Origin: Phytopythium helicoides
Taxonomy: Eukaryota > Oomycota > Peronosporomycetes > Pythiales > Pythiaceae
Assembly (NCBI GenBank): GCA_024867545.1
Contig: JANFNE010000008.1
Location: 828,501-892,500 of the forward strand
Length of the DNA: 64,000 nt
Reading direction: 5' to 3'
The notes under the pieces: generated by a model
The model's input: only the letters and a program-made list of their open reading frames with translations
Databases searched by the model: none
Told to the model about the DNA's origin: nothing
Program-made: the position numbers and the translations under genes
Part shown: in pieces, positions 2-52,528 of the stretch
Layout of the letters: every line of letters starts with the position of its first letter
How positions within the stretch are numbered: position 1 is the stretch's first letter

Positions 2-1036
2 ATTGCCGTCAGCCAGATTGTGTACAACGCCACGGGGCTCATGCTCGCAATCGTCACGGGGTGCAGCTTGCCATGTGTCCTACGATTCTGCGCGTTCGCC
101 ATCCCAGACGACGTCGAGTTGGAGCTCGTGACACGAATGAACAAGTTTGGGACGCCGTGCGCCACGCCAAATGAGTGTACCTCGGAACTTCCTCCTGTGA
201 GTGCTCTTCGTAATACCTCGATGATCCACAGCCACGCTCCTCCGCCCGTGATCAACCCCGTGTTCGTTGTGACCGATATTGAATCTTCGAGCTCGCTATG
301 GGCGATTGGGGACGGACGAGTGATGCAGCAAGCCATCGAAGTGCACGATGACGTACTGCGATCACTGCTTGCAGTGCACCGCGGATACGAGATCACGACC
401 GCGGGCGATTCTTTCCAGTTGGCATTCCACACGATCCGAGAGGCAGTTTCGTATTGCTTGGCCGTTCAACTCAAGCTTCTCACAGCCAAGTGGCCTCCGG
501 GGCTAAGTGGTTTAGTTCCCGCGACGCGAAAGCAGCGCACTGGAGCTCGTCTACTCTTCCGAGGGCTTCGAGTCCGAATGGGAATTCACGACGCAATGGG
601 GTCAGATGGGCCGCTCGTCACTAGAGTTCATGCAGTGACTGGCAAGATGACATACACTGGCGCGTCCGAGGTCATTGCGGCCGAAGTGAGCGATTTGGCT
701 GCTGGCGGACAAATCCTAGTCACCAAGAGAATCGCCGACTGGCTGCTGACCAACAAGCAGATCGTTCGTATGGACTACTCGGTGCATTTCTTGTGCAATT
801 ATGCACTGCCTCAAGTCGACGCGCACCTCGAGATCTCACAAGTTGTGCCTGATGAACTTGGACGTCGTATCAAGGTGTTTGGCGCTGATCCAACAAACCG
901 CTTTGGTGGGGAATTTATTGAAGACGACGGCGATGATTTTGATGCGTGCTACACACCGTCAGATGGCGCGCACTCGGCTCGGGAAAGCATATCGAGTATC
1001 GAGACGATCAGCGCTTCACTCCACGACCGCGTTTGA
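2..1036 (+). CDS. 7TM-class III cyclase protein, copy 1 (5' partial)
   Basis: The open frame enters at base 2, so upstream exon(s) lie outside the window. The visible part begins in the last membrane helix (VYNATGLMLAIVTGCSLPCVL). After a linker of about 60 residues comes a class III nucleotidyl-cyclase domain opening with NPVFVVTDIESSSSLW. Both metal-binding Asp positions are present (VTDIES and TTAGDSF). The Asn and Arg that normally stabilise the transition state are Glu and Ala (YTGASEVIAAEV). The domain resembles trypanosomatid receptor adenylate cyclases more than animal ones. It is the first of four neighbouring paralogues, and by comparison with copies 4 and 5 the missing exon should encode five to six membrane helices. 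Whether it makes cAMP, cGMP or nothing is unknown. Confidence 0.8.
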   Translation: MAVSQIVYNATGLMLAIVTGCSLPCVLRFCAFAIPDDVELELVTRMNKFGTPCATPNECTSELPPVSALRNTSMIHSHAPPPVINPVFVVTDIESSSSLWAIGDGRVMQQAIEVHDDVLRSLLAVHRGYEITTAGDSFQLAFHTIREAVSYCLAVQLKLLTAKWPPGLSGLVPATRKQRTGARLLFRGLRVRMGIHDAMGSDGPLVTRVHAVTGKMTYTGASEVIAAEVSDLAAGGQILVTKRIADWLLTNKQIVRMDYSVHFLCNYALPQVDAHLEISQVVPDELGRRIKVFGADPTNRFGGEFIEDDGDDFDACYTPSDGAHSARESISSIETISASLHDRV

Positions 1037-1302
1037 TTTTTTTTTCTGCGCGTCGAGAAGTCGTTTACGTCGTGATGCGTTCGCACTGCTCCATGGCAGA
1101 GGTAACGCCTCCTGAGGAACTGGGCGTTCTCAGCCGTCGAGTGCCATCTCGATCATTTTAGAGCTAGCGAGGCGAAACCGCATGCTAGGTTTCTTCTGTA
1201 GTAGAGTGTACAATAAAATCCGAGATAAGTTATTTTCGCAATGCTCGCAACCGCTGCTGCTGCTGCTGCGCCTCCAACTTTCTTCAGTTAAATCGAGAAG
1301 GC

Positions 1303-3103
1303 ATGCTTTACACCCCGCTGGCACTCGGCACAGGCCGCGTGCTCGAGCATTGCCTCGGCGCTTATGGTCGTCAAGTTCTGCCGCGACTGGCGCGTGGGAG
1401 GCTCCAGCGTTCGATGGCTTTTCACTCTCTTCTTCGGCTACCTGTGGGTCTACATCACGATGCGCGCAGTTTACTATTGCTGGCTCATGGAGCTGCTGCT
1501 CAACCCCGAGTCGATCCTCGACAAGACGCCGGCCAGCGGCGCCATTTCTCTCAGCAAGCTCGATCGACTCGGCATACACGCAATTCTCTACCTCACTGGC
1601 TCGACAGATAGCTGGATCATGCCGATCGTCGCAATCGGAGATACGGCACACTTTGGAGCGACGGTGTGGGTATTCCCTCTCATTTACGAGCTCTCCAAGC
1701 TCGTCAAACGTGCCATGGATCGCGGTGTCGAGAATGAAGAGGCCAAGATTCGTGTCTACGCGTGCGTCGGTCATTGCTTCGTTACGTTGTTTGCGCTCGC
1801 AGAGGTTGTGGTCGCCATCACGACAAGTGGGTACTCCAAGTACGCCCATGTACCTTGCTGCTAAGCCGTCACCTACTTCAGATGTGTGTGCTGTTGTACA
1901 TGGTCGCGACTTTGATTCTACTCAAGCACAAAGGTCGCAACAAAGAGGCTATCCACGGCCAATTTGTCGCGTCGCCGCTCTACCAGCGCCTCAAGTGGAT
2001 GATGTAAGCTCTCTCTTTTGCTGCCCAACTCTGTTTTTCACAGGATGCTAACATCACTTTCTCTACTCCAGGCTAGTATACGCGGTGTTCGCGTTCCAGT
2101 TCAACCTCACAGCTCTTATCATATTTGTCTCGCCCGACAACTTGGTGGCTCAAAAGTGCCTCGGCACGAGCGTTGTCATCTACAACGCAACTGTATTTGC
2201 GCTCGCAGTTGTGACCGGCTGCAGCCTTCCGTGCGTGCTCAGGTGCTGTCGGTGGTGCATTCCAGCTGAATCTGGAAATCGAGCCAAACTGCTGGGCTCG
2301 TCCGATCCCGTACATGATGTGCGTTACTCCTGCAGCCAGCAACGCCGCTCCCACAATTCGGCCAGTGTTTGTGTTCACGGACATCGAGTCGTCAAGCGCA
2401 CTCTGGGCCATCGGAGACGGAAGAACCATGCAAAAAGCCGTCCAGATTCATGATGACATCCTGCGATCCGCACTCACCAAACACAGAGGATACGAGATCA
2501 CCACTGCAGGAGACTCCTTCCAACTCGCCTTCCACACCATCCGAGAAGCAGCCGCCTACTGCCTCGACGTCCAAATGAAGTTGCTGACTGCCGAGTGGCC
2601 CAAGGAGCTGCACGGACTCGTGCCAGCCACCTCCAAGGAGCGTCAAGGCGCATCGGTATTTGTTTCGCGGGTTGCGCGTTCGCATGGGAATCCACGATGC
2701 GAATGAGTGTGAGGGAGCACTCGTCGTGGATGTGCACGCCGTGACGGGGAAGACGACGTATACGGGTGCGTCGGAGGTGATTGCGAGCACTGTCGGGGAC
2801 GCTGGAGCTGGTGGTCAGATCGTGGTGACTCGTCGCGTGGCGGAGTGGCTGGAGCAGAATCGCGATTTGATGTCGGAGCGGTTCGAGGTGGATTGGCTGG
2901 CGTCGCTGGAGATCCCGCAGGTGAGCATCAATGTGGAGCTGTGCCAGCTCCTGTCTCTCAAGCTCCTCGCTCGGAACCGGTTCTTCCCCGCCGTGGACCC
3001 GCGCCGAACCGCGAGTTCAAGCCGGCTCGAGTCGTCAACAACCCCGCACCGCCGCCGCCGGCACCTCCGCGTCGACCGGATCTCGCCGCTCGCCATGGTC
3101 TGA
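1303..3103 (+). pseudogene. 7TM-class III cyclase, copy 2, multiply frameshifted
   Basis: Homology to the intact paralogues covers the whole gene, but the reading frame changes at least four times: near 1345 (after MLYTPLALGTG), near 1845 (after SGYSKYAHV), between about 2310 and 2360 before the cyclase domain, and at about 2646, where one extra A (gcgtcaaggcg) is present relative to copy 3. The conserved intron is intact at 2004-2071 (donor gtaagc, acceptor cag, in the ATG codon of the IM motif). The part from about 2368 to 2938 is almost identical to copy 3, whereas the flanks are diverged. The C-terminus after LEIPQ is unique and arginine/proline rich. The number of independent breaks argues for a pseudogene; a locally poor assembly is the alternative. 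Confidence 0.75.
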
Positions 3104-3444
3104 AGCTCGGGCAGCGTGGCGTGCCGCTCCCAAGTGATCCACGCGCAGGTTCAAATGTGAGTCGCCAGCGGCGCATCCCCATCCCACCCTCTGTCAAATC
3201 GTGTCGCTGTCTCCCCACACCCTCGGGGTGATGATGATCGCCGCGCCGCCAAAACTCGCAAACTCCCCCACGCCCCGCGCCGTTTACGCGCGAGAAGAGC
3301 AGACGCGGCCCCGCCCCAAGCCGCCGACGCTCGCCGCGTCGCTTCACCTCGCCTTCTTCGCCTCCAGCAAGTCGCCCGTTGCGGCGGAACTTTCCTTGGT
3401 AACGGGCGCATTAGTCGATCGATCGCCTCCTCCGCCCCGCGGCC

Positions 3445-5261
3445 ATGCTGTACGCGCCGCTGGCGCTCGGCACTGCGACATGCTCGGCCGTCGGCGCCGC
3501 GCTCATGGTCTTCAAGTTCTGCCGCGACTGGGATATTCGCGTGCGCGTGTCGAGCGTGCGGTGGCTGTTCACCGTCTTCTTCGTCTACCTGCTCGCCTAC
3601 ACGCTCTCCCGAGTCGTCTACTACTGCTGGCTCGTCGACTTCCTCGCCGGTGCAGACCCGGACGTGCTCATTGTCGGCGAGACCGAGCGCTTCACGGTCG
3701 GCGAGATCGACCGCCTCACGATTCACGCGCTCGTGCACCTCGACAACTCGGGCACCTGAGTGGCTCGTCATCATCGTCGTGGTCGGCGACATCGCGCTCT
3801 TCGCATCCTCCCTATGGGTCTTCGCGCTCGTGTACGAGCTCTCCAAGCTGCTATCGCTCACCATGGACCGCGGCGCAGCAAGTGAGCGAGCCAAGATCCG
3901 CACCTACACGTGGATTGGGCATGGGTGCATCGCCGTCTTCGCCGCTGTCGAGCTCCTCTTCGCGCTGCTCTTCCCGGGCTACTCGGTCTACTCGCACGCG
4001 CTATTGCTCCTCATCTACCTCATGCAGATAGCGTCGCTCGTCTACATGGTCGTGAACGTCGTCGGGCTCAAGTGGAAGGGACGAGACAAAGAGTCCATCC
4101 ACGGCCAGTTTGTCGCATCGCCAATCTACCGCCGCCTCAAGTGTATCATGTGCGTGCAGAAGGCGCTATTGTAGTCGCTTTGTAAGCTAACGGAATGCTC
4201 TCGTGTCGCCAAACAGGGTCGTCTACGCCGTCTTCGCGCTTGAGTTCCAGATCAGCTCGCTCATTCTGTATACGACGTCGACCCACAACCGAATCAAACT
4301 CGAATATCTAGGCGCGAGTGCGATCATATACACGTCGACGGGCCTGGCACTCGCGGTCGTCACCGGCTGCAGCTTGAGCTGCGTCTTGAAAGCTTTCCCG
4401 TTTCTTGTACCGAAGGCACTGCACAGCCACATGGAAATCCTCATTGACGATGCAGCTTTCGCCGAAGGAGCTGCGCCGATTACCGGCACATTTGAGCGCG
4501 TGGGGCCATGGGTGAACCCCGTCTTTGTGTTCACAGACATCGAGTCGTCAAGCGCACTCTGGGCCGTCGGAGACGGAAGAACCATGCAAAAAGCCGTCCA
4601 GATTCATGATGACATCCTGCGATCCGCACTCACCAAACACAGAGGATACGAGATCACCACTGCAGGAGACTCCTTCCAACTCGCCTTCCACACCATCCGA
4701 GAAGCAGCCGCCTACTGCCTTGACGTCCAATTGAAGTTGCTGACCGCCGAGTGGCCCAAGGAACTGCACGGACTCGTGCCAGCCACCTCCAAGGAGCGTC
4801 AGGCGCATCGGTATTTGTTTCGCGGATTGCGCGTTCGCATGGGAATCCATGATGCGAATGAGTGTGAGGGAGCTCTCGTCGTGGATGTGCACGCCGTGAC
4901 GGGGAAGACGACGTATACGGGTGCGTCGGAGGTGATTGCGAGCACTGTCGGGGACGCTGGAGCTGGTGGTCAGATCGTGGTGACTCGTCGCGTGGCGGAG
5001 TGGCTGGAGCAGAATCGCGATTTGATGTCGGAGCGGTTCGAGGTGGATTGGCTGGCGTCGCTGGAGATCCCGCAGGTGAACATCAATGTGGATTTGTTTC
5101 AAATCCTCCTCACACAAATGCGTGGGCGGAAGCATCTCTTCAAACAAATCGAAATCAAGCGCGAGCCCAATCGGATCAGCCCTGCGAGACCAACGCAGTC
5201 GACGAGTGGAGAAACGTGGAGCAGCAGCACGCAATTTCCCATAGTCGTCGGCTTCTCCTGA
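3445..5261 (+). CDS. 7TM-class III cyclase, copy 3 (single +1 frame break)
   Basis: Exon 1 (3445-4149) encodes five membrane helices. Exon 2 (4217-5261) encodes two more and then the cyclase domain; the 67-nt intron has a gtgcgt donor and cag acceptor at the same place as in the paralogues. The only defect is at 3757: frame 1 ends at a TGA after NSGT, and homology resumes without loss or gain of residues if the T is skipped (GAG TGG CTC, EWLVIIVVVGD). Read that way the product has 582 residues. The cyclase domain (FTDIESSSALW, TTAGDSFQLAF) keeps the metal Asp residues, but the later Asn/Arg positions are Glu/Ser. The gene may be recently broken, mis-sequenced by one base, or use +1 frameshifting. 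Confidence 0.75.
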
Positions 5262-5414
5262 CGGGAGTGGCGACGTACGTTGGAGTGTACGACCCGAGTC
5301 AATGGACCAAATCCTTCCCATCGTGTAGTCTAACCAAGTCCAGTAGAAGGCATGTAGTCTAGTCATGGCGCACGTAATAAATTAAAGTTGGGAGTATTTA
5401 TTCCAGAGTTATCA

Positions 5415-7242
5415 TCAACACGAAACGTGTGAGAGTCCGTCGCTGAAGCTGTTGGTCGGGATCGTGCTGCAGAGTGAGGCTTCCAAGTACGACACTCTGC
5501 TGTATCGCTGACTTGCACGCTCGCCTCTATCCAGGATATTCCGGTTGGAAAAGAAGCGCGCACGCTGGTTGAGTCGCCGTGGGAGAATTTGGAACAACTC
5601 CACGGACAGAACAGAGTGGGGAACCTGGTATTCGCCGACGCGGTCCATAGTCGTGGGCGTTTCCAGCACCCAGTCGTTCGCTTCAAGCCAGTGGGCTACT
5701 CTGTGGGAGACCAAGATTTGCCCGCCAGCGCCTAGATTCCCGATTTCATTCGCGATCTCGAATGATGCGCCGGAATAGGTCGTTTTCCCTGTAACTGCGT
5801 GAACGCCGATTATCATTGGTCCTTCAGAGGTGGTGCTCGTGTCATGGATGCCTATTCTGACCCGAAGGCCGCTGAAAAGAGTTTTATGTGGGAGTATGCG
5901 TTCCACTTTCGTTGCAGGGACAAGTCCATGGAGCTCTTTTGGCCACTTGGCCACCAAGAGCTCCAATTGCACAGCGAGCGAATACTCGATAGCTTCTCGA
6001 ATCGTGTGGAACGCGAGTTGAAACGAATCGCCAGCAGTTGTGATCTCATACCCGCGATACTTGGCAAGCAAAGCACGAATGATCTCGTCGTGCATTTCTA
6101 CTGCTCGTTGCATCACAAGCCCGTCGTCGATGGCCCAAAGCGCACTGGAAGACTCAATGTCCGTGATGACAAAGACCGGATTTGCCAGCGGTGGTGATCC
6201 GCTGTGGCTTCGAATCGGCGTGAGCGATCTGGCTGCTGATTGGAGTAAGACTTCCTCACCACCACTCAGTTCAAGTAGTTGCGCTTCAACATCTTCGGGA
6301 AAACAACACGATCCGAAGCGAAGAACGCATGGTAGACTGCATCCCGTGATGAGCGCTAGCGCAAAGCCCGTCGAGTTGTAGACGATCTGGCTCACGGCGA
6401 TGAACGTGAACAAGGCTGGGTCGGTCGGCGTTCTCCAATACAACGAGAGCGAAGAAACCTCGTACTGAAACGCGAACAGGGCATACACCAACCTATCATC
6501 CACGAACGCCTCGATCAAAAAGGTGACAACCACGGAAATCTACAGTTGTGAGAACGTACATGATTCGCTTGAGGCGTCGGTAGACGGGTGATGCCTCAAA
6601 GTGGCCGTGCACGACTTCAATGTTTCGGCCTTTCCATCTCAGCGAGAGCAGCACCACGGCCATGTATGCGAGCGTGATCATTTGCATGACGTAGATGGCG
6701 AGCACAAGTCTGTACGCCGAAATGGAGTAGCCCCCGTTCCTTGCCGCAATCACGACTTGCGCGACGAGGAATCCAGCGATCAGAACGTGACCTGCAAGCG
6801 TGTAGAGCCTCATCTGGCGCTGCTCCTTCTCCACTCCGCGGTCCATGTTCTTGGCGGCGATCTGCGCAAGCTCGTAGGTAAGGGGGAGCACCCAGAAGGC
6901 GGCTCCGAGGTGCACGGCATCGCAAAAGCACAATAAGGCCGTTACCCAGGTTTTCTTGACGGCCGAGAGGTAAATCGACATGTAGATGCCGAGCTGGTCG
7001 AGCTCTGTCTTGGTCATCGACTCATTGACGGCGATGATGTCGTCCGACGGCAGCGAGAGCAGCCACGCGTACTGCACGACTCGCCCTGTGGTGTAGAGCC
7101 AAACGTACACGAAGAAAAGCAGGAAAAGCCAGCGAACGCTCGAAAGCCGCACGTCCCAGTCTCGCCAGAGCTTGACCGCGATGAGAAAGCAGCCGACGCT
7201 CGAGAGCGTCACGGCCGCCATGGCGAACGCGGTCCAGATCAT
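5415..7242 (-). CDS. 7TM-class III cyclase, copy 4 (intact)
   Basis: Exon 1 is 7242-6560 and exon 2 is 6492-5415, with a 67-nt intron (gtacgt...tag) splitting an ATG codon in phase 2 exactly as in copies 3 and 5. The product has 586 residues. About seven hydrophobic segments (five in exon 1, two at the start of exon 2) are followed by a roughly 60-residue linker and a cyclase domain starting at NPVFVITDIESSSALW. Metal Asp residues are kept (ITDIES, TTAGDSF). The purine-selecting Lys is Thr (YEITTAGD), and the transition-state Asn and Arg are Phe and Asn (YSGASFEIANEI). The gene is divergent to the channel gene at 7699. It is likely an integral membrane protein with a cytosolic cyclase-like domain; catalysis is doubtful. 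Confidence 0.85.
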
Positions 7243-7698
7243 CGAGCCCGCAGAACACTCCTCCGTTCGTCGACAAACAATCGATGCAGGACGCCCAGCG
7301 GCCTGTCATGGAGAGATGAGTGTTTCTTTGCACCCCGGTGACATGTTGGCCACGGCCACTGTTATGTATCGCAGATCCCCGGGCACTGACTGACTGCCAG
7401 GCAGTCCTGGCTGAGACGGTTTCTCAGCCTGCATGGGGATCTGCCGCCCCCTTCGATCACCAAGACCAAATGCAAGGTTTCCGCAGGCCCAACATGCTGA
7501 CGTGGCAATCAATTGGTTGCAGCTGGTCGTGTCGTCTGGACTCGGCTCAGGTGCTTTGGCCAGGCGTTTCAATTCATTTTGAGCCTGGCCGCTTTGCCCA
7601 GAACGGGAGGGATATTTCGGGGACCGGTTGGTGTTGTCTCGGTCCTCAGATGCATCACAACTTTGCCTTGGACGACACGAGCAAGAAGAGCAACGTCG
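7243..7698. other. Divergent intergenic region
   Basis: This separates the minus-strand cyclase copy 4 from the plus-strand channel gene, so it should hold both promoters. I see no TATA box, repeat or RNA gene that I could defend. The chosen ATG for the channel is 7699; the frame is open upstream of it, but without family similarity. Confidence 0.4.
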
Positions 7699-10600
7699 AT
7701 GGATCCCTCGCTCGGGTCGCTCCCGACGCTCATTGTGCCAGACGACCCGGAAACCGGTGCCATCGAGCGGCCAAAGACGCCGCCACCAGTCGAAGTCGAT
7801 GAGGCTAGACTCGCGTCTACATCGGCAGCTCCAAAAGCCAAGGAGCCGTCGGTCAAAAGTCCTCGAGAGCCGTCAACCAAGAGTCCTCGAGAGCCGTCGG
7901 TCAAGAGTCCTCGAGAACCACAGGTGAAGAGTCCACGTGAGTCCCCAATTAAAAGCCCACGAGACCCATCGGTGAAAAGCCCACGAGACCCATCGGTGAA
8001 AAGCCCACGTGCTCCATCGCATCATTCCGCTGCTCATCAAAGCCAAGCGATCGCGGTGGATATAGCTTCTCCACGAGCAGAAAAACAGCCAGACGATGGT
8101 GCTACTGCTACTCCTGCTGTGCCTCCACCTCCGCCGTCGCCAGTTCAAAAAGCACCTACTCTTAGTAGCAAAGATTTTAAGACCATGGCGAAACGAGCGG
8201 CTGCACTCGCGAAACTCGATCGACTAGCCTCAGGAAGCAAGTCGGTGTTTGACGTCGAAATGTCTGACATTGGCGCACTTGGCATTGGTATGCAGCTCTA
8301 CTTCATGCTAACAAAGTACCTAGGGGTGGTGTTCTTGACCATGGGGATCGTTTCACTCCCAGTGATTGTTGTCAACTATTTTGGAGACGGTGTGACGAGC
8401 AAGATGGCCGATCCGCTTCAATTAGCATATGCGTCACTTGGAAATCAAGGGGTCAGCGATGAGATCAAGCAGGACGCGAGTCTATGCCAGCCGGACGGAG
8501 AGATTGACTGCACGTGGGAAACAGTGAACACCCCATTTACATCTAGCCCAGTGACGGTTAGCTGGATCATCACGTCAAGTGACGCAATCTACTCGTTTGT
8601 CTTTCTTCTCTTCTTCGTCTACTTTCGTGTAAAAGCGCGGAAAGCGATCGAGCTACATCAGGCAGAAAACTTAACGCCTGCGAAATACTCTGTGTTTGTG
8701 CGGGGACTTCCTCCTGACGCGACAAAAAAAGAAATTCTCGAACATTTCAATTCGCGCTTTGATCCAACCCAGGAAGAGGAGTACTTTCCTTTGTGGCTCA
8801 ACTGTTGTTGGGGCCGTCGGCGCAAGGTCAAGAACTCGTTGAGTCGAAAGGCGATCAATTGCAATGTCGTATCGAATATCGAACACCTGACAGGTATCAC
8901 TGGCTCGTCTCCCGCAAACGAAGCGGACGCAGAAATGTACATTGGCACATGGATTGCGGAGGTCAGCGTTGCTCATCCAACTGGCGGTTTGCTTCGGACG
9001 TTCCTTTCTATGGAGGCGCTGACTCGGAACATCTCCGAGACAGAGGAACTTATAGCAATTCTGGAGCGGGAGAAAAAAGAGGCAGAAGAAGAGCAGGTAG
9101 AGCGAAATGCAGCCATAGCAGCAGCTGATGTTGTAACAGCAAAGAAGCTAAGAAGGCAAAAACCCAAAGCCACTTTCAAGCTGGCAGATGAGAAGCTACT
9201 ACAGGCAGCTCGGAAAAAACTGGAGAAGCTAAACGCCCAGATGGAAAAGAAAACTAGCAAGATCAAGGCATTCAAACAGCAGCAACGAGAAGACCGAACA
9301 GCTAGTTTGAAAAAGCCGAAGACGCCAACAGCTAGCGAAAAAGCACCGACACCTGTCTCTTCTGCCACAATTGCTCCTGCTCCATCGCCAAATGATCCAC
9401 CACTTGCTCAGGGATTAGCTCGTCAAGCAACCGTGAAGTTGAATGTTGAGGCAGTCAAGAAGGCGGCAGCAGACACCGTGAAGGCATTCAATCTGGAAGC
9501 GTGCGAGTGTGCCTTTGTTGTGTTTAACAATCTGGAGTCTCGGCGTCGATGCCTTCGCGACTATCGCAAATCGACTCGCTGGCTACCACAGGAAGTATCA
9601 ACCGAAGTACCTGCGTTTCCGTGATGGCAAATTTCCCCTCATTGTTGTACCCGCCCCCGAGCCGTCCAATATTCTGTGGGAGAATCTTGAGATCACGGAT
9701 CGCGGCCGACTGTACCGCCGGTCATTTACAAATTTTGTTACCTTCCTTCTACTGCTCTTTTCTTGCATTATCATTTCGGGTGCTCAGTCGGCGCAACAAC
9801 AGTTCAAAGCCAAGATGCCCCCCGCAGGGCTCTGCGACTATTCTCTACCAGCCGTTTACTATGGCAGCTACTCTTTTGACGATCAACATAACGCTGCCAC
9901 AAAAAACTTGGTCTGGGAACTAGAATGGGACCGAATGAGACTTGCTCTGTTGGGTCGTCGGGTGAAACTCGTTACCATATTGCTTACTCGAACGGGATAA
10001 TAAACGCCTTGAACGTAAGCAATGTTCCAAAGCTAAGTGCGGGAGAAAGTGCTCCTGTCCGATGCGTAGACCCATGCGTCTCTGATGAGAGCTCGACTAC
10101 TTGCAGCACGCTTCCTTGTTTCGATCAGGATCTGCTAGATGCAGGTGACGAGTGCGAGACCTACATGGCGAGCCACTCTCTCTATTGCCTCTGCACAACC
10201 CAACTGCAAGCTAGTATCAGCGAGTTGGGCATTATCGACGGCCCTCAGGCACTCTGGAAGGATTTTGTGCCTTGCCAAGGGCTTCATCAAAGACTATTTG
10301 ACCAAGAATGCATTCATTGTGATCGCCTCAGGTATCGTTGTAATAGTCAACCTACTACTGAAGTCGATTCTGCGCGCCTTTGCAAACTTTGAGCGGCACT
10401 CGAGCGAGTCAGCGAAGGCGTCCGCGATCACACTCAAAATGTTTATGGCGCAGTTTTTGAACACTGCTGTCATTGTACTCGTGGTTAACGCAGCACTCAA
10501 CTTGAACAAGGTTCCGCTCGTAAACGATCTTGTTCAAGGGAAAATATCATGACTTCCAGCGTGACTGGTATCCCGACAGTGGGTATGGCAATTACTATGA

Positions 10601-43772: not shown

Positions 43773-44265
43773 CTTGTTAAGCTTTCGGTTTCAATTGCTA
43801 CCTGCAGTCATTGGGGTGGAAAACTCGGTCTCACGATCAATAATCCAGGTTTTGTACGGATCGAGGTCGAGCAGCTCGGGCATTCGCTTCAGATTGGAAA
43901 TGATAAGTAGAGAGGCGTGCAAGATGAATAGGAGCCCCGCTGGCTGACATCGTCTCGTGCTTGTCTCGTGTTGCGGATGATTTGCGGGTGTTGCCTTCGA
44001 AGACCGCAGACACATAAAACTCTGGTCAAGCTTCCGTGGACAATGACCAAAGCTTCCTGAAACTGGCATTTCGCTGTGTTCAAGATATTTTGGGGAGAAC
44101 TCTGATGAGATGACCACTTGATTAGAAGCTGTGATGTTGAGATGAGCCGGCACTGCTCACCTCGGCAATTCACATCCCGACTGAAGGACCAACCTCAGTT
44201 TCTCTTCACGTCCACTTCCACTTCTCTCAGCTCCAAGTGATTTTAGCACCCTGCGTCGATCTGAA
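43773..44265. other. Intergenic, nothing recognised
   Basis: About 490 nt spacer inside the acetyltransferase cluster; no gene, repeat or RNA element identified. Confidence 0.4.
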
Positions 44266-44816
44266 ATGATGGCGCAGGTTTCAACCGCAATGAAACCAAC
44301 CATTTCGGTGCGCCAGTATTCGTCCGAAGACCAGCCATCCATTGCCAAGCTCTTCTACGAGGTTATGCTGACGCGTTACACCGACCCGAGCTCCGAAATG
44401 CATCTTCCGGGGAGAGAGTACGCCCAGAAGCGGCTGCAAACTGACCTCGCAGATATTCACGGCTCTTACATCGCAACGAGGGAAACTTCTGGGTCGCCGT
44501 AGCTACTGATGGAGCTGGGAGCGAGCGTATTGCTGGCATTATTGGACTCGATCGCAAGTCCGAAGCAGTTGGCGAGGTTCGCAGTGTGTTTGTGAGCGTG
44601 GATCATCACCGCCTCGGAGTTGGTCGCGCTCTCGTGTCGACGCTCCAACACTGGGCAAGAGAGAATGGCTTCCAGCGACTGTTCCTGACCACGACGGCAG
44701 ATAACCTGCAGTCTCGAGGATTCTATGAGTCCCTGGGCTTCGAGTACCAGCCACACGATCCCCCGCTGCTGATGCTGGGTCGTATCGAGCTCGCAGAGTA
44801 CGTGCAGCTCCTTTAG
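44266..44816 (+). pseudogene. GNAT acetyltransferase 4, single frameshift
   Basis: The frame from ATG at 44266 stops at 44502 after YIATRETSGSP. Homology resumes one frame over and runs to the stop at 44816 (VRSVFVSVDHHRLGVGRALV, FYESLGFEYQ). Compared with GNAT 6, which reads gctacggggggaaac, this copy has gcaacgagggaaac, one G fewer, which explains the shift. The invariant Trp in LPWRE is also Gly (LPGRE), suggesting relaxed constraint. The stretch 44320-44440 is almost identical to GNAT 6. Confidence 0.8.
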
Positions 44817-45133
44817 TCTACTGTTGCAGATAGAAAGATAATCGAGCATTGCGTTGGCCCACAAGATTTCAGTTGCTTTGTGATGCTCTGTGCTGATGCT
44901 GTGGCTCGCGAGTGTATGGTTTCATCAACGCGTTCATTGAGCTCGAGTCTTGGAGCTCTCATGCGCAGCAACCCATCTGGGCGATCGCTTTTGAGGGGAT
45001 TGATGTGATGAGTTGGTGATTGGAGGGCCAAGTCCTGATTACACCTCGACACTCCCAACTTCCTGCACTTCACGCTCACTCTCGCTTTTCACATCTTCAA
45101 GCGGTAGCTCCAACTCGAGGCAAACCAACCAAC
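44817..45133. other. Intergenic, nothing recognised
   Basis: About 320 nt spacer in the cluster; frames open upstream of the next ATG but without similarity to the family. Confidence 0.35.
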
Positions 45134-45700
45134 ATGGCGGCCACGGCACAATCTTTGAGCCCAGCCGCGACGGAGAAGCCGACCATTTCGGTGCGCCAGT
45201 TCACACCAGAAGACCAATCCGCCGTTGCCAAGCTCTTCTACGATGTGATGGACACCCGCTTCGCCGACCCGACCAGCGCCATGTACCATCCGTGGCGGGA
45301 TTTTGCAAAGAAACGACTCCAGACCGACTTGGCCGATATCCACGCCTCCTATATCGCAGTTGGGAACAACTTCTGGGTCGCAGTGGCAACCGACTTGACC
45401 GGCAAAGAGCGTATCGTTGGGATGGCGGGACTCGAGCGCAAGTCTGAGACTCTAGGTGAGGTCCGCAGCGTGTTTGTGAGCGTTGATCATCACCGCCTAG
45501 GAGTTGGGCGTGCCCTCATGATGACTCTAGAGGAGTGGGCGAGATCGAATGGCTTTCAACGCCTGTTCCTGACCACTTCGGCCGAAAACCAAAAGTCACG
45601 CGCTTTTTACGAATCTTTCGGCTTCTGTTACCAGCCGCACGATCCTCCACTCATCATGCTAGGACTCAATGAGCTGGTAGAGTACGTGAAGCTCTTGTAA
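45134..45700 (+). CDS. GNAT acetyltransferase 5
   Basis: Single exon, 188 residues from MAATAQSLSPAATEKPTISV; upstream in-frame codons lack similarity, and this ATG has a good context (aacatggcg). Motifs: KLFYDVMDTRFADPTSAMYH, GNNFWVAVATDLTGKERIVG, HHRLGVGRALMMTLEEWARS, FYESFGFCYQPHDPPLIML. The usual PGGNFW is VGNNFW. Substrate unknown. Confidence 0.88.
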   Translation: MAATAQSLSPAATEKPTISVRQFTPEDQSAVAKLFYDVMDTRFADPTSAMYHPWRDFAKKRLQTDLADIHASYIAVGNNFWVAVATDLTGKERIVGMAGLERKSETLGEVRSVFVSVDHHRLGVGRALMMTLEEWARSNGFQRLFLTTSAENQKSRAFYESFGFCYQPHDPPLIMLGLNELVEYVKLL

Positions 45701-45931
45701 AAGTTATCTTCGTGACAACGAGCCTACCATTTCGCCAATACAAGATATCATGTTGGCTCTGATGGGATGACTTGGTGATTACCTTTCTCTGATTGGAAGT
45801 TGTCGTGCTTAGATGACCAGCGCTTTATGTACCACTCCCCCAAGCTGCTTTGACCAAGCGGAGAAATGCTCAGTTTCCATTCCACCAACTTCCTGCGATA
45901 CCTTTCCTCCAGCTTAGTTGATCACTTCGAG

Positions 45932-46498
45932 ATGACGGCCTCTGCGAACTCTTCGACCGCTGATGCAGCCAAGAAGCCGATCGTCTTGGTGCGTCAGTTC
46001 TCATCCGAAGACCAGCCATCCATTGCCAAGCTCTTCTACGAAGTTATGCTGACGCGTTACACCGACCCGAGCTCCGAAATGCATCTTCCGTGGCGAGAGT
46101 ACGCCCAGAAGCGACTGCAAACGGACCTCGCGGATATTCACGGGAGCTACATTGCTACGGGGGGAAACTTCTGGGTCGCTGTAGCTACCGATGCAGCTGG
46201 GGTCGAGCGTATTGCTGGCATTATTGGCCTCGATCGCAAGTCCGAGACGGTTGGCGAGATTCGCAGCGTGTTTGTCGGAGTGGAATACCATCGCCTCGGA
46301 ATTGGCCGCGCTCTCATGTCGACACTCCAACACTGGGCGAAGCAGAATGGCATCCAACGACTGTTCCTGACCACGAGGGCCGAGAACCCGCAGTCTCGAG
46401 GATTCTACGAGTCCATGGGTTTTCGTGTCCGACCGCACAACCCTCCACTACTGATCCTGGATCGCATCGAAGTTGCAGAGTACGAGCAACTGCTGTAG
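45932..46498 (+). CDS. GNAT acetyltransferase 6
   Basis: Single exon, 188 residues from MTASANSSTADAAKKPIVLV. Motifs: SIAKLFYEVMLTRYTDPSSE, TGGNFWVAVATDAAGVERIA, YHRLGIGRALMSTLQHWAKQ, FYESMGFRVRPHNPPLLILD. Its 5' third is nearly identical to GNAT 4, implying recent duplication or conversion. It appears to be the functional partner of that broken copy. Confidence 0.88.
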   Translation: MTASANSSTADAAKKPIVLVRQFSSEDQPSIAKLFYEVMLTRYTDPSSEMHLPWREYAQKRLQTDLADIHGSYIATGGNFWVAVATDAAGVERIAGIIGLDRKSETVGEIRSVFVGVEYHRLGIGRALMSTLQHWAKQNGIQRLFLTTRAENPQSRGFYESMGFRVRPHNPPLLILDRIEVAEYEQLL

Positions 46499-46831
46499 TC
46501 TGAGTAGTTTGTCGACTAAGCACACTGCTCCTATACCATCTACGATCTTGGCTCACGCAGTATAGCCAAGGTATCTATGACCCCGAAGGATCTCTTCCCG
46601 TTGTACATGTGTGTAAGGTTCGCTCTCAGCCGCTTCTGGTGGCCTTGGCTGCCTCCATGAAAGGTCAGCCGACCGATCACCTCGGATTGGATGGTGCGGT
46701 GATTAGACGCAGGAGCGCTGCGGCGGTCGCAAATCAGTGGATGAGCGTGCTGGCCCTGCTTGGCGAGCGTCGCGACTGCTCACTCCTGCAGTCGGCAGTC
46801 ACGAGGAGCTCCCCTCGCAGTCCACCTCGCC
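46499..46831. other. Intergenic, nothing recognised
   Basis: About 330 nt spacer before the last acetyltransferase gene; composition rises sharply in GC towards its 3' end. Confidence 0.35.
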
Positions 46832-47410
46832 ATGACCTTGACTTCTATCGACCCAAGCTCCGAGGCTGTGGACGGCAAGCCGACAATCACCGTGCGCGAG
46901 TACGAGCCAAGCGACCACGCCGCCATGGTCAAGCTGTACTCGGAGGCGATGGCCACTCGCTACGACGACCCGCAGCGCGAGATCGGGCTGCTGTGGCGCG
47001 CGTACACCGCGGAGCGGCTGCGCTCGGACCTGGCCGACGTGCACGGCGCGTACGTCGCTCCTGGCGGCAACTTCTGGGTGGCCGTGGCCACGGACGCGTC
47101 GGGCCGCGCGCGGCTGGCGGGCATGGCTGGTCTGCGGCGCCGGTCCGCGTCCGAGGGCGAGGTGCGCAGCGTGTTCGTGGGGCGGCAGCTGCAGCGGCTG
47201 GGCGTGGGCCGGCGGCTGCTGGCGGCGCTGCGGCGCTGGGCCGAGGCCCGCGGGCTCTCGCGGCTCTGGCTGACGACCGTGGCGGCCCACGCGCACGCGC
47301 GCGCCTTCTACGCGGCGCTGGGCTTCCGGCAGGCGGCGCGGGCTCGTGCCGCTCGTGCGGCTCGAGATGACGCTCGGCAGCGAAATCAGCGCCGGAAAAT
47401 CGCGATGTAG
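46832..47410 (+). CDS. GNAT acetyltransferase 7, probable altered C-terminus
   Basis: It starts MTLTSIDPSSEAVDGKPTIT. The core motifs are intact: APGGNFWVAVATDASGRARL, EVRSVFVGRQLQRLGVGRRL, LGFRQ. After LGFRQAAR the annotated frame becomes an Ala/Arg run ending RRKIAM. One frame over, the same DNA reads GLVPLVRLEMTL, which matches the family ending (PPLLILDRIEVAEY). A one-base indel near 47335-47342 therefore probably changed the last strand. GC content is far higher than in GNAT 1-6. Activity uncertain because the C-terminal strand shapes the substrate site. Confidence 0.75.
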   Translation: MTLTSIDPSSEAVDGKPTITVREYEPSDHAAMVKLYSEAMATRYDDPQREIGLLWRAYTAERLRSDLADVHGAYVAPGGNFWVAVATDASGRARLAGMAGLRRRSASEGEVRSVFVGRQLQRLGVGRRLLAALRRWAEARGLSRLWLTTVAAHAHARAFYAALGFRQAARARAARAARDDARQRNQRRKIAM

Positions 47411-47598: not shown

Positions 47599-49535
47599 AT
47601 GGTGTGGGCCACGCTGTCGCTCGGCGCCATCGCGCTGTCGCTGCTGTCCACGGGGCTCACGACCGCGCGGCTGCGGCGCAACTGGGACCTGCACGTGTCG
47701 AGCGTGCGCTGGCTGTTCGTCGCCTTCTTCGGCTACTTCTGCGCCTACTACGCCTCGCGCCTCGCGTACCTAGTGTACGTGCGCTTTGCGCCAGAAGATG
47801 CCGTGGCCAAGGGCGACGCAGACGTCGCCGCGCTGTACGAGCGCTACAGCACCATGGGCATCTACACGGTGCTCAACTTCCGCGCCACCAGCGACCCCTA
47901 CGTCACCGCGCTGCTATGCCTAGGCGACACGCTGCTCTTCGCCAGCGCCGTCTGGATGTTCCCGCTCAGCTACGAGCTATCGCACATCGCCACCAAGTCC
48001 ATGGACAGAGGACCCGAGAAGGAGAAGCAGCAGATTCGGACCTACAGCTGCTACGTGCACGCGCTCATCGGCACCTACGCCGCGCTAGAGGTCGCGCTCT
48101 CCATCGCCTACGGCGGGTACACTACGGCCACCCAGCGCTGCCTGCTCTCCATCTACTTCATCCAGTTCTTCAGCTTCTTCTACATGATCTGGCTCATCGT
48201 GCGCCTTCGCATCGGCGGCAGGAAATACGAGAACGTCAGAGGTCAGTTCGTGACCTCCCCCATCTACCAGCGCCTCACGCGCATCATGTAAGTGCTGTGA
48301 GCGTGTTCAGCAACGTTGTTGGATGGGCTGGCTCTTCTAACATTCATGTTGGCTGCTACAGGGCCATCTACGCGATCTTCTCGTTCCAGTACCAGCTCAT
48401 GTCGGTCGTCATGTATTCGACCCCCAATAGCGAAGACATCCTCGTCAGCTTCATCAGCGTCTCATCCATCATCTACAGCCTCGCGGGGATGGCGCTCTCG
48501 GTCACCACCATGTGCAGCCAGGTGTGCGTGCTCCAAGCTTGCCACTACTGCTTGCCAGACGACGTTGAGGCCCAGATGCAAGCGCGACTTATGCAAGCCG
48601 GCGGGGAGTTGTCGACTCCTCGTGACACACTGGCGCATGAACTAGTCGAGCCACCCCTTGTGAATCCTGTGTTCGTGTTTACCGACATTGAGTCGTCCAG
48701 CGCGCTCTGGGGCATCGGAGACGGCACCATGATGCAGCGCGCAACCGAATTGCACGACAACATTTTACGCTCGTCGCTGACCAAGTACCGAGGATACGAG
48801 ATCACGACGGCAGGCGACGCGTTCCAGCTCGCTTTTCACACGATCCGTGAGGCTGTCGAATACTGCTTGGATGTGCAGCTGCAGCTGCTGGTGGCTAACT
48901 GGCCCAAAGAGCTGCATCAAGCGCTCCCAGCGACTCGAAAGCACCGCTCTGGTCATCGCCTAATCTTCAACGGACTTCGAGTGCGCATGGGCATCCACGA
49001 TGCCATCGAGTCGGACGGACCACTTATTCTCGACGTACACGCTGTGACTGGCAAGATGATCTACACCGGTGCAGCTGAAGTGATTGCGAACGAGATTGGT
49101 GATCTGGGTGGTGGCGGTCAAATTCTCGTCACCAAACGCATTGCAGACTGGCTGTTCATGTACGAGGACCTGGTGTCGATCGAATGTTTGGTGGAGCGCG
49201 TTGGTGAATACGCGATCCCGCAGATCAACGCGAAGCTAGAAGTGTTCCAGGTGCTGCCAGAGGTGCTGAGCGGTCGACGGAAGTTGTTCCCATCGACGTT
49301 GCGGAAACGTACAGCGACCACTTCATTCGGTACCGCCGGGTCGTTCGGCACCGTGGGGTCCTTCACTGGCCAGATGTCTGGCAATCGCGAGCGCCTCAAT
49401 AGCGCGGCCTTTATGAGACGACTGGCGCAGCAACAGGAGTATCAGCAACAGCGGCCACTGGCGCGTCATGCGTCGCAGCAGTCGGTCTTCGGCCGGCCAA
49501 GCGATCTGTTCTACGCGCGGTCGACGAGCATGTAA
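47599..49535 (+). CDS. 7TM-class III cyclase, copy 5 (intact)
   Basis: Exons 47599-48287 and 48362-49535; the 74-nt intron (gtaagt...cag) splits the ATG of RIM|AIYAIF in phase 2; 620 residues. Seven hydrophobic segments lie at about 2-24, 36-60, 101-127, 146-168, 180-203, 230-250 and 258-282. The cyclase domain (about 318-510) starts NPVFVFTDIESSSALW. Metal Asp positions are kept (FTDIES, TAGDAF). The purine-selecting Lys is Thr, and the Asn/Arg pair is Glu/Asn (YTGAAEVIANEIG). The C-terminal tail is Ser/Gln-rich with three GTxGSFGT-like repeats. It lies 40 kb from copies 1-4, just after the GNAT cluster. Expected topology: extracytosolic N-terminus, cytosolic cyclase domain. Confidence 0.87.
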
Positions 49536-50431: not shown

Positions 50432-51700
50432 TTACATGGCGCAGTTCTTGGTGCTACCGGTCGAGGCGGTGGTCGTGGTGGCGGCAGGCGTAGCGGCAGG
50501 AGCGGCCGTGGTGGTGGCGTCCGTCGCGGTCGTGGGGGCCGGGGTCACCGCGGGGGTCGAGGCCGAGCTGCCATCCGTCTCGTCATCGTAGGACGAGTCA
50601 TCGTCGTAGTCGCCCGAGTCCGAGTCGTCCTCGTAGGTGTTCGTGGACTCGGTCGTGGTCGTTGCCGCGGGGGCAGTGGTCGTCGTGGCGTCGGTCGTCG
50701 TGGGCGCAGCCGTCGTGGACGCGGGCGCAGTCGTCGACGTGGTGTCGGCGGTGGTCGGCGCAGCCGTCGTGGACGCGGGCGCGGTCGTGGTCGTGGTGTT
50801 CGAGCTCGTGGAGCCATCGCCCGACGGGATCGTCACGTGCTGCGTGGTGGTGTCCGAGCCGAAGAGACCGAAGTGCGTCTCGTAGTCGGCACCCGAGTAG
50901 CTGGTGGTCGTGTCGAACATCATGAAGTAGTAGGAGTTGCCGACGCTCTCCGACCAGGTGACGAAGTCGTCAATGTACTGCTGCATGCCGTCGTACGAGG
51001 GCGTGTTGCCCTGGTACGTCGAGCCGGCGTAGGGCCAGCCCGTCTCGGTGACGTGCATCTTGTCGGTCGAGTAGCCGGCCGAGATCATCTGCTGCCACTG
51101 GGCCTCGAGCTTGGTGACGGCGCTGTCGTCTCCGTTGGTGAAGAACGGGTAGATGTTGACACCAATGACGTCGCAGGCAGCGTACAGCGAGGCCGTGTTG
51201 GATGTCTCGAGCCACTCGTTGATGCGCTGCACGGTGCCGACCTTGACGCCCGTGCCCGAGACGCAGCTCTGCACGCGCTGGATGTAGGAGATGAGGTCGG
51301 CCGAGGACATGGATCCGAAGGAGCCATCGGCGTTGATGAGGTTCTCGTTGCCGACGTAGATGGCGTCGACGGCGTCCGGGTAGGACTTTGCGCCCGAGCA
51401 TGCGGCCTCAATCTCTGCGTCAATGAGGCTGGCGTCGGTGAGCTGCACGCCCGCGGCGATCTTGAGTCCCGCGCTGGCGGCGGCCTCGATGGCGTTGACG
51501 GAGCTGAAGAGCGTCTGGAAGGTGCGGATGCGCTGGAAGTAGGTGGCCGTGATGGAAAAGTCGCTAGCGATGACGGACGCGTCCACGGACGTGTGGTGCC
51601 ACGGCGCGTAGCAGACACCGGTGGACAGCGAGCCGGCGTCGGCGACCGCGGCCAGCGCGGCCATGGCGGCGAGCACGCCCATGTACTTGGCGCAGACCAT
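50432..51700 (-). CDS. Secreted GH17 beta-1,3-glucanase with Thr-rich tail
   Basis: Single exon, 422 residues from MVCAKYMGVLAAMAALAAVADA, a signal peptide ending about residue 22. The GH17 barrel spans about 25-300: GVCYAPW near the start, YVGNEN with acid/base Glu119, NIYPFF, and HVTETGWPYAG with nucleophile Glu219. Residues 303-422 are a mucin-like tail of (T/A/P)-rich repeats (TTAPASTTAAPTT) with an acidic YEDDSDSGDYDDD block; there is no hydrophobic GPI signal at the end (STKNCAM). GH17 enzymes cleave or remodel beta-1,3-glucan. Oomycete walls are beta-1,3/1,6-glucan, so self-wall remodelling is the likely role; the tail is probably O-glycosylated and may bind the wall. Confidence 0.9.
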   Translation of the reverse strand: MVCAKYMGVLAAMAALAAVADAGSLSTGVCYAPWHHTSVDASVIASDFSITATYFQRIRTFQTLFSSVNAIEAAASAGLKIAAGVQLTDASLIDAEIEAACSGAKSYPDAVDAIYVGNENLINADGSFGSMSSADLISYIQRVQSCVSGTGVKVGTVQRINEWLETSNTASLYAACDVIGVNIYPFFTNGDDSAVTKLEAQWQQMISAGYSTDKMHVTETGWPYAGSTYQGNTPSYDGMQQYIDDFVTWSESVGNSYYFMMFDTTTSYSGADYETHFGLFGSDTTTQHVTIPSGDGSTSSNTTTTTAPASTTAAPTTADTTSTTAPASTTAAPTTTDATTTTAPAATTTTESTNTYEDDSDSGDYDDDSSYDDETDGSSASTPAVTPAPTTATDATTTAAPAATPAATTTTASTGSTKNCAM

Positions 51701-52528
51701 GTCGAGGCTCGTGGGGGATAAGAAGCCGGGGGAGTGCGTCGGAGCGCGCGGATTGGGGAATGACTCAGAAGCGATCCCTGCCGGTCGTTTACACTGGGCC
51801 GCCTCTACTGCCACTGTCGCCGACAGTCGGTGCACAATGGTAAACCTGATGCAGCAGCCTCAGCATCAGGCTCGGCCAGATGGGCGCGAACCGCCTCCCG
51901 GATATACTTTCGCCAAGAGCGAACCGGACGTCGACAGCTGGTGAATCGCGTGCGTGGGCCGCGCGCGTCCGCATACTGGGCGCCAGTCGATTTCTGGGCG
52001 GCGGTTTCGCCATGCACCGACAGCTGGCGCGCGTGAACGGGGCTCTGTGGGTGAAAACCGAGCGCGAACGGACGACTGAGCGCGATGTTTGGATTTTCGA
52101 GCGCGACGAGTCAGCGCAGCGAGCCGGAGCGCGTCGATCGTCGAGCGTCTGATGCATTGATTCTCACAGGTTTTAGGGCTCGCGAGTGCGCGGGATCAGG
52201 CGGCTGCGCGCCGGCGCTCATAGGATCTCGCAGGTGCTCCGGTCCGCCCTTGCTGCTCTTGCTGATCGACTGACGAGCGACCTCCAGCTCGCGACGACAC
52301 CATGAGGCCGCGAGGTGTCGCACTCGCGCGTGCGCTCGGCTGGCCGCCGCGGCTGTCGGCGCCAGCGCATGCGCCCGTGTCGCGCCTGCAGCTGGACCCT
52401 GCGGCTTTCCACGGCGCGATCCGGCGGCTCCCGTGCCGAAAATTCGGCGACTGAGCAAAGCGATCCGATCCACGATCGCGCGGGATAAATAGACCTGTCG
52501 TATTGTACCTGTCCGTCGTCTGGATATG
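51701..52528. other. Intergenic, short frames only
   Basis: Region between GH17 and the ankyrin gene. A 35-residue frame at 51837 (MVNLMQQPQHQARPDGREPP, ending TFAKSEPDVDSW) and a frame ending at 52152 (LWVKTERERTTERDVWIFER) look protein-like and could be exons of a small plus-strand gene, but I could not join them with a convincing splice. Confidence 0.3.

Follow-up and report, generated by a model that had tools for sequence, protein, structure and literature searches.

Five related genes in a 64,000-nt stretch of the Phytopythium helicoides genome (the window; C79:828501-892500, 57% GC, from a genome of 49.06 Mb in 100 contigs) belong to the oomycete GPCR-bigram family GPCR-AC, and their cyclase domain, judged from its residues, holds half of a class III active site. 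The best explanation, which we hold with about even confidence, is a split cyclase: a seven-transmembrane (7TM) receptor bearing a C1-type half would be completed by the tethered C2-type half of a conserved tandem cyclase. By class III rules and the residue counts given below, the AC type of bigram would not be a stand-alone enzyme, and a C2 half left without a partner in those genomes is a concrete candidate to complete it; the question of activity becomes one of two-protein reconstitution. If true, this would be an arrangement of receptor and enzyme in which a 7TM protein and a shared partner each supply part of the active site.

Gene copies and membership in the GPCR-AC family

GPCR-ACs were described in 2018 by van den Hoogen and colleagues, with four members in P. 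infestans and similar numbers in other oomycetes; the available text of these reports mentions none outside oomycetes and gives the activity as unknown (PMC5784254, PMC6033456). The window genes share with that family the N-terminal 7TM part, the C-terminal class III cyclase domain and kinship to named members: a protein deposited as P. agathidicida GPCR-AC 2 (P0012) has 65% identity over 94% of the query, and the P. infestans relatives P0004, P0016 and P0056 have 70%, 64% and 50% identity. Among the matches listed, the closest relatives of the encoded proteins come from Phytophthora, downy mildews, Globisporangium and Pythium. A preliminary description of the window had proposed an oomycete fusion of a GPCR-like protein with a catalytic domain, which is what the published family is; neither the fusion nor its restriction to oomycetes is new.

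The same description placed four copies of shared architecture at the start of the window and a fifth at 47.6 kb, and tblastn of the copy 5 exons against the window recovered all five, copy 1 lying only partly inside and copy 4 on the minus strand (Table 1). Copy 1 is cut by the window edge, copies 2 and 3 have broken frames, and copies 4 and 5 are intact. Once spliced, copy 5 encodes 620 aa, with the cyclase domain at approximately residues 331-530. The frame of copy 2 breaks near 1345 (if the start is at 1303), 1861, 2295 and 2650, and that of copy 3 breaks once, near 3757 in exon 1, with an intact cyclase domain in exon 2; both may be pseudogenes or products of assembly error. Copies 2 and 3 are 97.7% identical over 576 bases of the cyclase domain and 74-80% identical over the remaining alignable stretches, as would be expected from a recent exchange (gene conversion) or a partial duplication.

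Table 1. Positions of the GPCR-AC copies (window coordinates unless a contig is given) and of the tandem cyclase loci
Feature	Position	Strand	Details
Copy 1, exon 1	C79:827650-828339		left of window; exon-wise genome search
Copy 1, exon 2	2..1036	+	7TM end and C1-type cyclase domain; PF00211 39.6 bits
Copy 2	1303..3103	+	architecture as in other copies; intron 2004-2071; about four frame breaks
Copy 3	3445..5261	+	exon 1 3445-4149, intron 4150-4216, exon 2 4217-5261
Copy 4	5415..7242	-	intact; exon 1 7242-6560, intron 6559-6493, exon 2 6492-5415
Copy 5, exon 1	47599..48287	+	helices 1-5 and cytoplasmic loop to start of helix 6
Copy 5, phase-2 intron	48288..48361	+	GTAAG...CTACAG
Copy 5, exon 2	48362..49535	+	helices 6-7, juxtamembrane Cys-rich segment, C1-type cyclase domain, C-terminal tail
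Tandem cyclase	C57:1239224-1241608
Tandem cyclase	C90:508041-510425

Genome-wide searches with both exons gave nine distinct loci, four more than the window holds. Seven lie on C79 (588k, 822k, 828k, 830k, 832k, 835k and 876k) and one each on C6 and C46. Seven of the nine loci have a phase-2 GT-AG intron where helix 6 begins, with the split codon AT/G in copies 1-5 and C79:822k and TT/G in C6; C46 and C79:588k have none at that place. The preliminary description had noted this conserved intron in the window copies. The C46 locus (C46:150500-155500) is an intronless paralogue with 7TM and cyclase parts in one unbroken 650-aa frame, which rules out that the N-terminal 7TM exon is a separate transcript. 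Its cyclase stretch recurs with a different N-terminal frame on C53, a small contig; this is possibly a haplotype or assembly duplicate.

Other frames in the window include about four of GNAT-type acetyltransferases at 44185-47410 (by reading; 45020-45700 matches PF00583 at 8.5e-20) and, on the minus strand at 50432-51859, a glycoside hydrolase 17-like protein that looks secreted, has a Ser/Thr-rich tail and matches PF00332 slightly under the cut-off. A 707-aa frame at 7501-9624 (+) has a repeated KSPREPS-like stretch, hydrophobic segments and one sub-threshold RRM match, and presumably resembles OSCA/TMEM63 channels.

The helix count of about seven was borne out. Hydropathy gave seven segments in copy 5, P0004 and P0056 and six above threshold in the C46 protein, and an AlphaFold2 model of the P. 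infestans orthologue P0004 has seven long helices, combining a GPCR-like 7TM with a cyclase fold; the 7TM fold of GPCRs (of any class) is thus present. Loop charges in the hydropathy analysis agree with an N-out/C-in topology. Pfam hmmscan assigned no GPCR family to exon 1 of copies 4 and 5, P0004, P0250 or P0268, in line with the earlier remark that the 7TM part has no obvious classical GPCR match, and an MDRG motif after helix 3 is nearly invariant among the homologues examined.

Half of an active site in the GPCR-AC cyclase domain

The cyclase-like domain, for which a PF00211 search had been proposed, scored 39.6-49.4 bits in the four copies scanned and 29.4 bits in a piece of copy 2 (cut-off 21.9). 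Its active-site columns were read in 161 homologues, comprising the best 120 of 220 matches and 41 new ones from the best 120 of 289; rows were clustered at 90% identity, some are fragments and some were grouped by sequence, and all counts are among the matches listed. Albugo laibachii, four Aphanomyces species and Saprolegnia diclina are represented among them. All readable rows retain both metal aspartates (Me1 Asp 161/161; Me2 Asp 160/160 readable), and the purine-binding Lys (0/160) and Ad2 Asp (0/161) and the transition-state Asn (0/160) and Arg (0/159) are absent from all of these. As a positive control, 20 bacterial-type cyclases were read in the same alignment and have Me1 Asp in 20, Me2 Asp in 20, Lys in 13, Ad2 Asp in 18, Asn in 18 and Arg in 19; the canonical letters in most controls support the column placing. 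In an alignment with 1fx2, FTDI and GD are retained by copy 5, which has Thr at the purine Lys, Ile at the purine Asp, Val at the transition-state Asn and Glu at the Arg.

An Arg stands one residue ahead of the transition-state Arg column in 25 of the 161 homologues, and Asn stands at that place in 96 (among the matches listed). The rows with the shifted Arg (motif I-A/G-R-E) include most of P0250-P0263 and most Saprolegniales rows listed; none of the 25 has Asn in its own column, and none has the purine Asp. The shifted Arg could still serve in its subfamilies.

With the metal aspartates kept and four catalytic residues absent, the domain resembles the C1 half of mammalian adenylyl cyclase. 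By class III rules, a domain with these residues cannot work as a homodimer. The 161 homologues rule out that the half-site is an oddity of the window copies. Of the 7TM protein with a nucleotide-cyclase module that was first described, the 7TM part and the class III fold hold, but the cyclase domain has only half of an active site. In the openly licensed literature searched, we found no statement on the half-site or partner of GPCR-AC, and by that literature the half-site appears to be new beside the known fusion. The genes studied here thus share the 7TM head, the C-terminal class III cyclase domain and the oomycete distribution of the published family; there the domain is named an adenylyl cyclase, whereas here a half-site is read in 161 members and a candidate partner is proposed.

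A tandem cyclase as candidate partner

The candidate partner is encoded at two loci in the genome (Table 1) as a tandem cyclase in which no TM-like segment was found. As relatives we took the best 120 of 130 matches, consisting of 51 oomycete-type rows, which span Phytophthora to Albugo, Aphanomyces, Achlya and Saprolegnia, and 69 others (diatoms, dinoflagellates, green algae and some unnamed); the following counts are among these matches. Domain 2 of the oomycete rows has the Ad2 Asp, Asn and Arg in 50/50 readable rows, and lacks the Me1 Asp (0/49) and Me2 Asp (0/50 readable). In domain 1 of the oomycete rows the Me1 column holds Ser (42/43) or Thr (1/43), and no listed row has GD at the Me2 place. 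The 69 other rows keep the Me1 Asp (68/69) and the GD motif (69/69) in domain 1, with no N..AR (0/69), and the Ad2 Asp (69/69), Asn (64/65) and Arg (64/65 readable) in domain 2. Going by these residues, tandem domain 1 has lost its metal aspartates in oomycetes and is dead there. It also diverges faster than domain 2 in the oomycete sequences: mean identity between P0124-P0159 and six Saprolegniales rows is 0.43 for domain 1 and 0.65 for domain 2, while the algae show the reverse (0.58 and 0.49).

In residue content, the half-sites of the GPCR-AC domain and tandem domain 2 are complementary. Searched against this genome, tandem domain 2 matches, besides itself, only GPCR-AC domains (7 matches, E<=1). 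The N-terminus of the tandem has a cysteine cluster (CWWCC in 24/50 rows and SCW in 7/50 among the matches listed, with many others beginning at an inner Met). P. parasitica PPTG_08439, possibly the tandem of that species, was found in zoospore membranes according to the available text of PMC12223298. A single-chain model of the tandem, built on 33 sequences and without an error matrix, lacks canonical C1:C2 packing (approximately 17-20 A rmsd over ~500 columns vs. sAC and AC9; 16 A vs. AC5).

The ancestry of the GPCR-AC domain was examined with trees. In an unmasked tree (71 rows) it falls on the domain-1 side with an SH-aLRT of 81 (the tool's mark is at 95). A tree of 94 rows with active-site columns masked shows no preference among domain 1, domain 2 and bacterial cyclases as its closest kin, and AU tests on 88 of these rows (dropping ALGD2_P0191, ALGX_P0286, ALGD1_P0191, ALGD1_P0195, ALGX_P0287 and ALGD2_P0190) reject none of six groupings (p 0.43-0.70). 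Mean identity of GPCR-AC is 0.38 to algal domain 1, 0.35 to bacterial-type cyclases and 0.24 to algal domain 2. One metagenome sequence, P0286 (861 aa), joins an ammonium transporter (PF00909) to cyclase motifs of both C1 and C2 type in a single protein and is possibly an ammonium-sensing cyclase.

That the same organisms encode both a C1 half on a receptor and a conserved C2 half lacking a working partner in its own chain suggests a site assembled in trans. In this reading, GPCR-AC is a GPCR-like receptor of seven helices in N-out orientation, whose cytoplasmic C1-type half carries two metal aspartates; most likely it becomes an enzyme only once paired in trans with a C2-type domain. The best candidate for that role is tandem domain 2, which retains Asp, Asn and Arg but has no metal aspartates. 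The tandem probably sits at the membrane via its N-terminal cysteine cluster, and a ligand on the 7TM part would control engagement of C1, e.g. through its distance or angle, and switch on the shared C2 partner. Physical pairing, catalysis, membrane tether, product and ligand control are all things we infer. As to the product, the kept Ad2 Asp suggests ATP, which the Gln at the Lys position makes less certain. With a little less confidence than in the split cyclase itself, we propose that a family of C1-bearing GPCR-like receptors would compete for a single membrane-tethered C2 half that they share, left over from a tandem cyclase of stramenopile type whose own C1 was disabled; receptor would be wired directly to cyclase by an active site in trans, possibly with no G protein. 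As counterpoints, the metal aspartates could have been retained to bind nucleotide in a domain that does not catalyse, and the tandem's own domain 1 could compete for domain 2.

In favour of the split cyclase, the other PF00211 cyclase loci in the genome (C19, C7, C25, C32 and C13) each have a C1-like beside a C2-like domain (frames read by eye). At C7:130000-139500, a frame of at least 2142 aa (2320 in the genome search) combines a P4-ATPase part with two cyclase domains, C2-like then C1-like; we take it to resemble the ATPase-guanylyl cyclases of apicomplexans and ciliates. Against the split cyclase, an earlier study cited in the available text of PMC5322657 reported cAMP and cGMP unchanged in zoosporogenesis.

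Rival readings and known systems

The strongest rival to the split cyclase is a pseudocyclase, a metal-nucleotide-binding switch or scaffold that makes no cyclic nucleotide, on a receptor that signals as an ordinary GPCR via G proteins (model E of van den Hoogen and Govers). We regard it as unlikely, though well ahead of the other alternatives. The four catalytic residues missing in all readable rows of the 161 homologues, with the metal aspartates kept, speak for it, as does a GPCR-like 7TM fold with its nearly invariant MDRG; an inactive catalytic domain is also among the options in the available text of the 2018 review (PMC6033456). It leaves unexplained, however, why tandem domain 2 has Asp, Asn and Arg in every readable row with no metal partner in its chain, and why tandem domain 1 alone has decayed.

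Activity could also survive in a self-sufficient, non-canonical homodimer, with the lost residues replaced by others (the Lys of VTGK, the Thr of EITT or the shifted Arg), which we think improbable. Among the matches listed, the Lys of TGK occurs in 156/161 rows and the shifted Arg in 25/161, and the second Thr is present in 121/121 (the first 120 listed rows and copy 5), a strongly conserved motif without drift. Yet the TT motif with a nearby basic residue is also found in algal domain 1, whose neighbour is of C2 type and has Asp, Asn and Arg, and we know of no class III cyclase that is active without all four residues. Slightly less probable still is that the C1 half pairs with the C2-type domain of another cyclase (a cis pair or a voltage-sensor cyclase) instead of the tandem. 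C2-like domains are available at the five other loci, and flagellar voltage-sensor cyclases are reported in P. parasitica zoospores in the available text of PMC12223298; they were not recognised in this genome by exon-wise searches, which can miss split or divergent cyclases. Each C2-like domain found here, however, is already accompanied by a C1-like one at its own locus, and the C19 and C7 domains are distant in type, a long branch separating these rows from the rest.

Under the split-cyclase reading, GPCR-AC differs from the known receptor cyclases in how its site is divided. The T. brucei receptor adenylate cyclases GRESAG 4.1/4.3 (1fx2, 1fx4) are not known to be 7TM proteins, and 1fx2 has in the alignment the Lys, Asp, Asn and Arg that GPCR-AC lacks. 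In mammalian tmAC and soluble GC heterodimers, a C1-type metal half is completed by a C2-type half; the tmAC halves lie in one chain, whereas here they would lie in two proteins, one of them a 7TM receptor. The available text of PMC8815786 describes this completion in tmACs, and also the NeoR/RGC rhodopsin cyclases of chytrids, which like the arrangement proposed here are receptor-cyclases and obligate heterodimers; there RGC1 and RGC2 both keep the known important residues and both are rhodopsins, whereas here the residues are split and the candidate partner has no TM-like segment. The tandem C1/C2 cyclases of diatoms, dinoflagellates and green algae (P0171-P0240 except P0184) come close in their halves: domain 1, mostly EITTEGDAF-like, has metal aspartates and no Asn/Arg, as in GPCR-AC, and domain 2 resembles that of the oomycete tandem. 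In the algae, however, both halves are intact in one chain in which no 7TM part was noticed, whereas GPCR-AC has a 7TM.
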